This document shows positions 32,623-33,693 of a DNA stretch of 64,000 nt, one piece after another. Positions within the stretch are counted from its first letter, which is position 1. Each line of letters starts with the position of its first letter. A model generated the notes under the pieces. The model was given only the letters and a program-made list of their open reading frames with translations. It was not told the DNA's origin and did no database searches. Where the stretch lies: the NCBI RefSeq assembly GCF_039536245.1, contig NZ_BAAAYN010000006.1, positions 248,001 through 312,000 of the forward strand, written 5' to 3'. Position numbers and translations under genes: made by a program. The DNA comes from Cryptosporangium minutisporangium (GTDB lineage Bacteria > Actinomycetota > Actinomycetes > Mycobacteriales > Cryptosporangiaceae).

Positions 32623-32651
32623 TTGTTCAGCGTGTCGTCCGTCCGCATAAT
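32623..32651 (+). promoter_or_regulatory. Sigma70-type promoter for the small ORF at 32725
   Basis: TTGTTC (32623-32628) and CATAAT (32646-32651) are 17 bases apart on the plus strand. The start site would fall near 32658, about 65 bases before the small ORF. It is back to back with the amidohydrolase promoter. Confidence 0.6.
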
Positions 32652-32724
32652 TGAGTTGGCGGCGGAGAAATCTGCCCCTACGGTGAACACCAACGAAGCA
32701 CCGACACGGAATCCGGAGGCCGAC

Positions 32725-32853
32725 ATGTTGCGACACACCTCGCGCGCACCGCGGCGCTCCCTGCCGCGCGGCGAGGGTGCCTCATGCGTCGAGCGACCCT
32801 CCGACCAGGTCATTTTCGAGAACGATGCCCGCCGGGGACGGTGGCGACGCTAG
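32725..32853 (+). CDS. Small basic hypothetical protein (42 aa)
   Basis: The ATG follows GGAGG at 32715-32719 with good spacing. The 42-residue product is Arg-rich (starts MLRHTSRAPRRSL, ends RRGRWRR) with a central VIFEND segment. It has its own promoter and a factor-independent terminator 22 bases after the stop, so this is a complete transcription unit of about 250 bases directly ahead of the tRNA array. The alternative is a small noncoding RNA with the ORF as coincidence. No homologue is recognised. Confidence 0.5.
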   Translation: MLRHTSRAPRRSLPRGEGASCVERPSDQVIFENDARRGRWRR

Positions 32854-32874
32854 CGCGACCAGCGCCTCGCTTTC

Positions 32875-32907
32875 GCCGCCCTCCCAGTCGGGAAAGGGCG
32901 GCTTTTT
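32875..32907 (+). terminator. Intrinsic terminator with T-run
   Basis: GCCGCCCT (32875-32882) pairs perfectly with AGGGCGGC (32895-32902), followed by five T's. It is rare in this window for a hairpin to have a T-run. It ends the small plus-strand unit and insulates it from the tRNA array. Confidence 0.85.
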
Positions 32908-33016
32908 GTTTCCGCCAATTGCTTCTCTGTGCTGCCCGGACAATTCTTCGTCGTGTAGTGCCCCCGGGTATTCGGGGCGGTCGTGATCATTGAGAACTTC
33001 ACAGTGGATGGCACAT

Positions 33017-33092
33017 CTGGAGCGAGGGAGACGGCAACCCGTCCGCTTTGGAAGCGGAAGACCACCCGGTTCGACTCCGGGGCTCCAGACCA
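33017..33092 (+). tRNA. tRNA-Pro(TGG), first gene of the array
   Basis: Acceptor CTGGAGC/GCTCCAG is fully paired, the anticodon loop TTTGGAA gives UGG, and the T-arm is CCCGG-TTCGACT-CCGGG. C1:G72 and A73 are proline identity features. It is the only gene of the array with an encoded CCA (33090-33092). The D-stem is three base pairs (GGG/CCC). Confidence 0.88.
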
Positions 33093-33096
33093 TCCC

Positions 33097-33169
33097 GGGC
33101 TTGTGGCGCAGCAGGTAGCGCGCCGGTGTGGCACACCGGAGGTCGACGGTTCGAATCCGTCCAGGTCCA
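33097..33169 (+). tRNA. tRNA-Ala(GGC)
   Basis: Acceptor GGGCTTG/CAGGTCC pairs with a G3:U70 wobble, the alanine identity element. D-stem GCGC/GCGC, anticodon stem CCGGT/ACCGG with loop GTGGCAC (anticodon GGC), T-arm GACGG-TTCGAAT-CCGTC, A73. CCA is not encoded. It starts four bases after the tRNA-Pro CCA. Confidence 0.88.
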
Positions 33170-33201
33170 CGGCGGGAGCACTGTCATGGCTCCCGCACCC
33201 T

Positions 33202-33274
33202 GTTCCTGTAGCTCAGCGGAGAGAGCACCGGACTACGAATCCGGGGGTCGGCGGTTCGAATCCGTCCAGGGACA
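33202..33274 (+). tRNA. tRNA-Arg(ACG)
   Basis: Acceptor GTTCCTG/CAGGGAC, D-stem GCTC/GAGC, anticodon stem CCGGA/TCCGG with loop CTACGAA (anticodon ACG, presumably modified to inosine). T-arm GGCGG-TTCGAAT-CCGTC, A73, no CCA. The D-loop AGCGGAGA keeps A20, an arginine identity base. Confidence 0.87.
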
Positions 33275-33280
33275 CTTCTC

Positions 33281-33352
33281 GCCTTCCAAGCTCAGGTGGT
33301 AGAGCACGCGGTTGAAGCCCGCGAGGTGTCGGTTCGACTCCGGCGGAAGGCA
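33281..33352 (+). tRNA. tRNA-Phe(GAA)
   Basis: Perfect acceptor GCCTTCC/GGAAGGC, D-stem GCTC/GAGC, anticodon stem CGCGG/CCGCG with loop TTGAAGC (anticodon GAA). Short four-base variable loop, T-arm GTCGG-TTCGACT-CCGGC, A73, no CCA. It starts six bases after the tRNA-Arg. Confidence 0.87.
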
Positions 33353-33358
33353 CGACGC

Positions 33359-33432
33359 ACCCTGGTAGCCCAATCGGCAGAGGCGGCCCGCTCAAACCGG
33401 GTCCAGTGCGGGCTCGAATCCCGCCCGGGGTA
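33359..33432 (+). tRNA. tRNA with Leu anticodon CAA and a short variable loop
   Basis: Acceptor ACCCTGG/CCGGGGT (one T:G), D-stem GCC/GGC with loop CAATCGGCAGA, anticodon stem GCCCG/CGGGT with loop CTCAAAC (anticodon CAA, Leu UUG). T-arm GCGGG-CTCGAAT-CCCGC, A73, no CCA. Bacterial tRNA-Leu normally has a long class-II variable arm; here it is only five bases (CCAGT). It may be charged poorly, or by another synthetase. Confidence 0.8.
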
Positions 33433-33441
33433 CGCAGCAAG

Positions 33442-33515
33442 GTCGTCGTAGCTCAGTAGGTGAGAGCGCCGAGCTGATACCTCGGAGGCCGTAGGTTCAA
33501 TTCCTGCCGACGACA
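33442..33515 (+). tRNA. tRNA-Ile(GAT)
   Basis: Perfect acceptor GTCGTCG/CGACGAC, D-stem GCTC/GAGC, anticodon stem CCGAG/CTCGG with loop CTGATAC (anticodon GAT). T-arm GTAGG-TTCAATT-CCTGC with one T:G pair, A73, no CCA. Confidence 0.88.
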
Positions 33516-33554
33516 CGCAAGCAGGCTCGCCGCCCGTGTGCGCCCGCCAGTACC

Positions 33555-33627
33555 GCCCCCGTAGCTCAGCGGAGAGAGCGCCAGGTTCCGAACCTGGAGG
33601 TCGCTGGTTCGAATCCAGCCGAGGGCA
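33555..33627 (+). tRNA. tRNA-Arg(CCG), last gene of the array
   Basis: Acceptor GCCCCCG/CGAGGGC has one C-A mismatch at pair 5. D-stem GCTC/GAGC, anticodon stem CCAGG/CCTGG with loop TTCCGAA (anticodon CCG), T-arm GCTGG-TTCGAAT-CCAGC, A73, no CCA. A20 is kept. The acceptor mismatch could lower stability. The next gene starts 66 bases downstream. Confidence 0.85.
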
Positions 33628-33693
33628 CTCAGGAACCGACGGTCTCACGCGCGCCATCCACCGTGGAGTTCCCACCAGGGATAAGGTCGCTCG

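Follow-up and report, generated by a model that had tools for sequence, protein, structure and literature searches.

Seven tRNA genes in the window (33017–33628, + strand; by the window we mean the whole stretch of 64,000 nucleotides that was analysed) are, as far as sequence can tell, one part of a tRNA array that is split over two loci of the genome. The reading that we consider probable is that the locus belongs to a phage-type array kept in two complementary copies behind a leader-peptide attenuator, from which replacement tRNAs would be released when translation or the cell's own tRNAs fail. More tentatively, with doubt slightly outweighing belief, we propose a tRNA-loss regulon common to temperate actinophages and their hosts, in which a cis-acting upstream open reading frame (uORF) attenuator sampling nearly every amino acid would release tRNAs, RtcB, and an HNH nuclease, and selection would keep split arrays complementary. 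If true, phages and hosts share one regulatory RNA for the same stress. The first-pass annotation came close in proposing that the array is domesticated and serves in stress or in translation reprogramming: phage copies, unrelated flanks, and an attenuator-like leader agree with it, and the stress function is something we infer. It had missed that the array is only part of a two-locus split and that the leader upstream tells more than any other element.

ARAGORN calls the same seven genes as had been annotated, all on the + strand: tRNA-Pro(TGG) (33017–33092), Ala(GGC) (33097–33170), Arg(ACG) (33202–33275), Phe(GAA) (33281–33353), Leu(CAA) (33359–33433), Ile(GAT) (33442–33516), and Arg(CCG) (33555–33628). 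The gaps between them measure 4, 31, 5, 5, 8, and 38 bases, all seven genes have A73, and only Pro encodes CCA. With the Rfam tRNA model, six of them score 48–74 bits in a search of the window, and Pro(TGG) scores 43 bits in a whole-genome search. Position 8 of this Pro tRNA is G instead of the usual U, seemingly also in the copy on contig C8. Bacterial tRNA-Leu normally bears a long variable arm. The window Leu(CAA) is 75 nt long and lacks it, as do two array Leu tRNAs at locus L031 (11514–11588 and 11689–11763). An annotation error was considered and dropped, as short Leu tRNAs recur in the C8 array and in related and phage arrays, and most of the phage Leu tRNAs examined are also short. These short array tRNAs may not be charged with leucine. 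The neighbours of the array encode a methyl-accepting chemotaxis protein (MCP), a GDSL hydrolase, an amidohydrolase, a 320-residue protein with no Pfam match, Fur, and KatG. No integrase or phage gene was found among the neighbours inspected, as the first-pass annotation had noted, and a prophage in place was rejected since metabolic genes, Fur, and KatG, and no structural or integrase genes, lie beside the array.

Elsewhere in the draft genome of the window (9.23 Mb, 152 contigs) lies a canonical gene for every anticodon of the window array: Pro(TGG) on C43, Ala(GGC) on C28, Arg(ACG) on C17, Phe and Ile on C44, Leu(CAA) on C26, and Arg(CCG) on C27. The window genes are thus not the only ones for essential isoacceptors, and they show the isotype redundancy usual for tRNA array units. 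Array and canonical genes with the same anticodon are only 55–78% identical. All seven window tRNAs depart from their canonical counterparts in the anticodon loop at position 32, 37, or 38; G37 is replaced by A in Pro and in both Arg tRNAs, and Phe carries G37. Changes in the anticodon loop relative to host tRNAs have likewise been reported for phage tRNAs (PMC10264068); the window array differs in lying on a bacterial genome, and resistance of its tRNAs to cleavage is putative. Half of the C8 tRNAs retain the canonical anticodon loop, which counts against the replacement-tRNA explanation.

The leader (32623–33008) precedes the tRNA genes, and its homology with other arrays reaches up to about 32638. 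A putative sigma-70-type promoter, TTGTTC-N17-CATAAT (32623–32651, +), was read directly from the sequence and is not picked up by a stricter consensus scan; its –10 element GCATAATTG is common to G002a and G002b, and ATAAT also occurs in G003. It is followed by a 42-codon uORF with a Shine-Dalgarno site (32725–32853, +; MLRHTSRAPRRSLPRGEGASCVERPSDQVIFENDARRGRWRR, then a stop codon). The attenuator (32824–32906, +) matches our covariance model R1 with 71.7 bits, its sequence belonging to the training set of the model. Region 1 (32833–32846, +) comprises the final uORF codons and forms the 5′ arm of the antiterminator, region 2 (32874–32887, +) is common to antiterminator and terminator, and region 3 with its T run (32890–32907, +) is the 3′ arm of an intrinsic terminator. 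A boxA of the rRNA-operon type (TTGAGAACTTCACAGTGGA, 32990–33008, +) forms the last part of the leader. When the window leader is folded, the antiterminator reaches –32.2 kcal/mol as long as region 3 is not yet transcribed, and the terminator –22.1 kcal/mol with region 1 masked. A short ORF with a ribosome-binding site thus stands before a terminator, and antiterminator and terminator are mutually exclusive by computation. The leader looks like a translation-sensing attenuator; it matches no Rfam family, the best score being 23.1 bits against a gathering cut-off of 127.

In the mechanism that we propose, transcription would start near 32658. During healthy translation a ribosome would read the 42-codon uORF to its stop and cover region 1, so that region 2 would pair with region 3 and the intrinsic terminator would halt transcription. 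Were aminoacylated tRNAs to run short, through cleavage by an anticodon nuclease or inhibited translation, ribosomes would stall or fail upstream, region 1 would be free to capture region 2 as an antiterminator, and RNA polymerase would read through. As the transcript is long and untranslated, the boxA may then recruit NusB/S10 to it for antitermination; the sequence-divergent array tRNAs would replace the missing ones.

R1 was run on 397 genomes of the same order, and 105 of the 107 matches examined precede tRNA genes, an RtcB gene, or an HNH nuclease gene (in overlapping classes, 55 before tRNAs, 43 before rtcB, 40 before HNH, and 2 before none of these). The identity of RtcB is given by Pfam PF01139 (2.8e-126). 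Leaders of rtcB carry the same type of uORF, though they were absent from the training set of R1; those of HNH genes have uORFs that are shorter or lack a Shine-Dalgarno site. In a class-wide sample of 395 genomes (E 1e-4), R1 matches only the window's own genome and two Micromonospora. The finding of the leader elsewhere before the gene for a tRNA-repair enzyme suggests that replacement tRNAs and repair may be turned on when a cell's own tRNAs fail, in bacteria and phages. The rtcB genes in the window's own genus lack this leader, and the short ORF upstream of them (L304, L303, L310), which also has a Shine-Dalgarno site, is a different one. In Micromonospora, a lone HNH gene follows the leader (L226, L228, L230, L232); this arrangement occupies one place in several genomes, adjoining a kinase-like gene. 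A further R1 leader in the genome of the window (C47:116271–116359, L218; 42.9 bits) is followed by a doubtful tRNA-like sequence and, downstream, by a gene for a glycosyltransferase with EryCIII-like domains.

The targets of the leader also bear on its signal. It is possible, if rather unlikely, that the same attenuator senses ribosome-targeting antibiotics in general and not tRNA loss: one regulatory uORF is reported to respond to more than one class of antibiotic (PMC12121999), and the L218 copy does precede the glycosyltransferase gene. Damage to tRNA nevertheless accounts better than drug resistance for the main partners of the leader, tRNA genes and the gene for the RNA ligase RtcB, and the amino-acid range of the uORFs is unusually wide. 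They hold 17.5 distinct amino acids per 40 residues, compared to 15.1 in proteome windows and 12.8 in other frames, and are rich in Cys, Trp, and Gln. We prefer loss of charged tRNAs as the probable signal.

The second array (contig C8, 80326–82944) holds 21 further tRNAs and an internal HNH gene. The isoacceptors missing from it are precisely Arg(ACG), Phe, Leu(CAA), Ile, and Arg(CCG), all of which the window array supplies, and jointly the two cover all 20 amino acids. Relatives give the ancestral order as Trp Pro Ala Arg Phe Glu Gly Gln Leu ... Ile ... Tyr Arg Cys; the genome G003 keeps an array of this order at one place, and the window array holds a part of these genes in the same sequence. 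G002, of the same genus, has two arrays that are divided differently, with only Val(CAC) and His common to both, and the two arrays of Rugosimonospora africana (L130, L147) have no isoacceptor in common. With slots derived from the very arrays tested, the hypergeometric P for complementarity is.004 in the window's own genome, 4e-5 in G002, and 6e-7 to 4e-4 in R. africana, depending on the number of slots; in Asanoa iriomotensis it is not significant (P.16). Duplication with reciprocal loss fits as the origin of the split arrays, and selection for a complete set may keep them complementary. The homologous unit defined by blastn (32638–33628, +) comprises leader and tRNAs and is common to the C8, G002, and G003 arrays, and the flanking DNA of the five arrays of the genus is unrelated. 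The array is not conserved in place in all relatives, being absent from G001 and located elsewhere in G002 and G003.

This distribution also bears on whether the array is a decaying relic, a drifting phage leftover with no present function. Its presence in the genus is patchy, a Pro(CGG) remnant lies within a gap of the C8 array, and there is a decayed third copy on C18 (186243–186709, L219) with a short uORF, a terminator, a Pro(CGG) tRNA, and a broken HNH gene. Against such drift stand the complementary retention in three genomes, the boxA and leader kept on both parts, and the intact cloverleaves, so we regard a relic as improbable and a maintained two-part array as the better reading.

A Shine-Dalgarno uORF of 39–44 codons that ends 14–25 nt before region 2 is present in 32 of 38 leaders (expected 0.35), and no uORF of that type was found in the other six. 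With a dN/dS of about 0.78 the uORF evolves nearly neutrally, so that only its position argues that translation matters; such neutrality would also be expected of a uORF that acts by being translated and not through its peptide. In 36 leaders region 1 is able to pair with region 2, and the terminator is 97% paired and nearly invariant across leaders. Covariation in the antiterminator amounts to 29 double-changed cells compared to 16.1 ± 3.2 after shuffling (0/500) and at most 11 when slid, and the own region 1:2 pairing is better than that with swapped partners (0/20000), the relatedness of the sequences inflating the shuffle tests. In 83 matches, mostly rtcB and HNH leaders, the count is 71 compared to 40.8 ± 4.8, in an alignment (A2) that leans to the model and includes weak R1 matches (~20–24 bits) inside rtcB loci. 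A very improbable reading takes the leader for a small protein gene that has nothing to do with the array and ends in a terminator of its own, the region 1:2 pairing being incidental: the conserved ORF length and start favour it, but the near-neutral dN/dS, the compensatory changes spanning the uORF end and a terminator arm, and the constant association with three target types speak against it.

The boxA has the sequence found in the rRNA operons of the genus. In four genomes of the genus, the string with at most one mismatch occurs only in 16S–23S spacers and in tRNA-array leaders; the rRNA operon of the window's own genome is absent from the matches, presumably because it is unassembled, and the G003 array has a more diverged form. 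Three mycobacterial plasmid arrays carry an exact boxA directly before the first tRNA (L076 3526, L182 1432, L183 1415), and a search of three phage loci of different kinds found none. When GTDB contigs were scanned with a 19-nt pattern derived from boxA, 50 loci matched. Arrays are present at about 36 of them, all Micromonosporaceae by name; the remaining fourteen or so, from unrelated taxa, hold none. Such arrays, which the first-pass annotation placed mainly in phages, plasmids, and a few actinobacterial islands, are also common on Micromonosporaceae genomes. IMG/VR matches to the 19-nt pattern alone (L171–L181) have no arrays and were taken as chance. Least probable of all is a constitutive extra supply of tRNAs for codon compensation or growth, a known hypothesis for phage tRNAs (PMC10264068) that strong transcription, which boxA would favour, would suit, as the anticodons are redundant with host genes and a conserved terminator precedes the array.

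Seven IMG/VR contigs of 40–166 kb were reached via the C8 HNH protein. Their fetched stretches hold 13 to 36 tRNAs each, all with a near-cognate boxA, and include full arrays that keep the same gene order, have up to 36 tRNAs, and are accompanied by HNH gene and boxA. R1 matches five of the seven contigs (41–70 bits), and in four of these a uORF stands where it should and has the size expected. Pieces of three contigs were sampled, and these are tailed phages, one of them at least carrying an integrase: PHROGs assigns head, tail, and integrase genes to one, terminase, portal, and neck genes to a second, and a tail tape-measure-like gene to the third. A terminase search with PF03354 gave nothing convincing. 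The comparison with phage arrays that had been suggested shows that phage contigs have the array complete, together with HNH gene and boxA and in most cases with the leader. For five of the seven window tRNAs, phage tRNAs are clearly nearer than any canonical gene in the genome of the window; for Arg(CCG) they are slightly nearer and for Arg(ACG) less near.

Arrays of this kind are already known as tRNA array units, defined by at least two tRNA genes per kb and at least 20 in all (PMC5966550); at 7 genes in 612 bases the window array has the density and falls short of the number, which the C8 array reaches with 21. The window array works like, and descends from, such a unit. Those known from mycobacteria and from mycobacterial plasmids and phages (PMC5966550, PMC12803027) are likewise dense, on one strand, mobile, redundant with chromosomal anticodons, and cover about 20 amino acids; they also have an embedded HNH gene, 46% identical to that of C8. 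In contrast, the window system is split into complementary loci with a uORF attenuator in front, and R1 has no match in the mycobacterial plasmid arrays examined.

In trp-type leader-peptide attenuators, the end of a short ORF overlaps one arm of mutually exclusive hairpins. The window leader shares this arrangement with them and with E. coli toiL, whose uORF senses ribosome drugs (PMC12121999), whereas its own uORF has no codon run for one amino acid and a wide amino-acid range, and its targets are tRNA genes, rtcB, and HNH. The trn operon of Anabaena, also a long tRNA operon beside housekeeping tRNAs, is reported to be kept repressed by TrcR under standard culture conditions and to be switched on by translational stress (PMC10272220); there a DNA-binding repressor acts, whereas for the window array we propose a cis RNA attenuator and its induction. 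In the Salmonella rtcBA RNA repair operon, RtcB expression is reportedly tied to tRNA damage through the RtcR activator, which binds tRNA fragments (PMC7790460), whereas here an attenuator is common to rtcB and tRNA arrays. None of these precedents is this system. Provisionally, four features appear new: the attenuator, its presence before rtcB as well, the occurrence of boxA in the leaders of arrays, and the splitting of arrays into complementary parts. In a literature search that covered mostly papers outside subscription journals and preprint servers, published work on actinobacterial arrays gave no regulatory element, and no paper was found that connects antitermination to tRNA arrays or a uORF and terminator to RtcB.

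Deletion of one bacterial tRNA array gave no apparent phenotype, as cited in PMC5966550, which counts against the replacement-tRNA explanation. The leader makes the purpose of bacterial and phage arrays directly testable, as it predicts when the array would switch on and ties it to RtcB, and R1 provides a motif for finding further members. On contig C22 of the same genome (57793–57865), ARAGORN also calls a tRNA-SeC(TCA) of only 73 nt.
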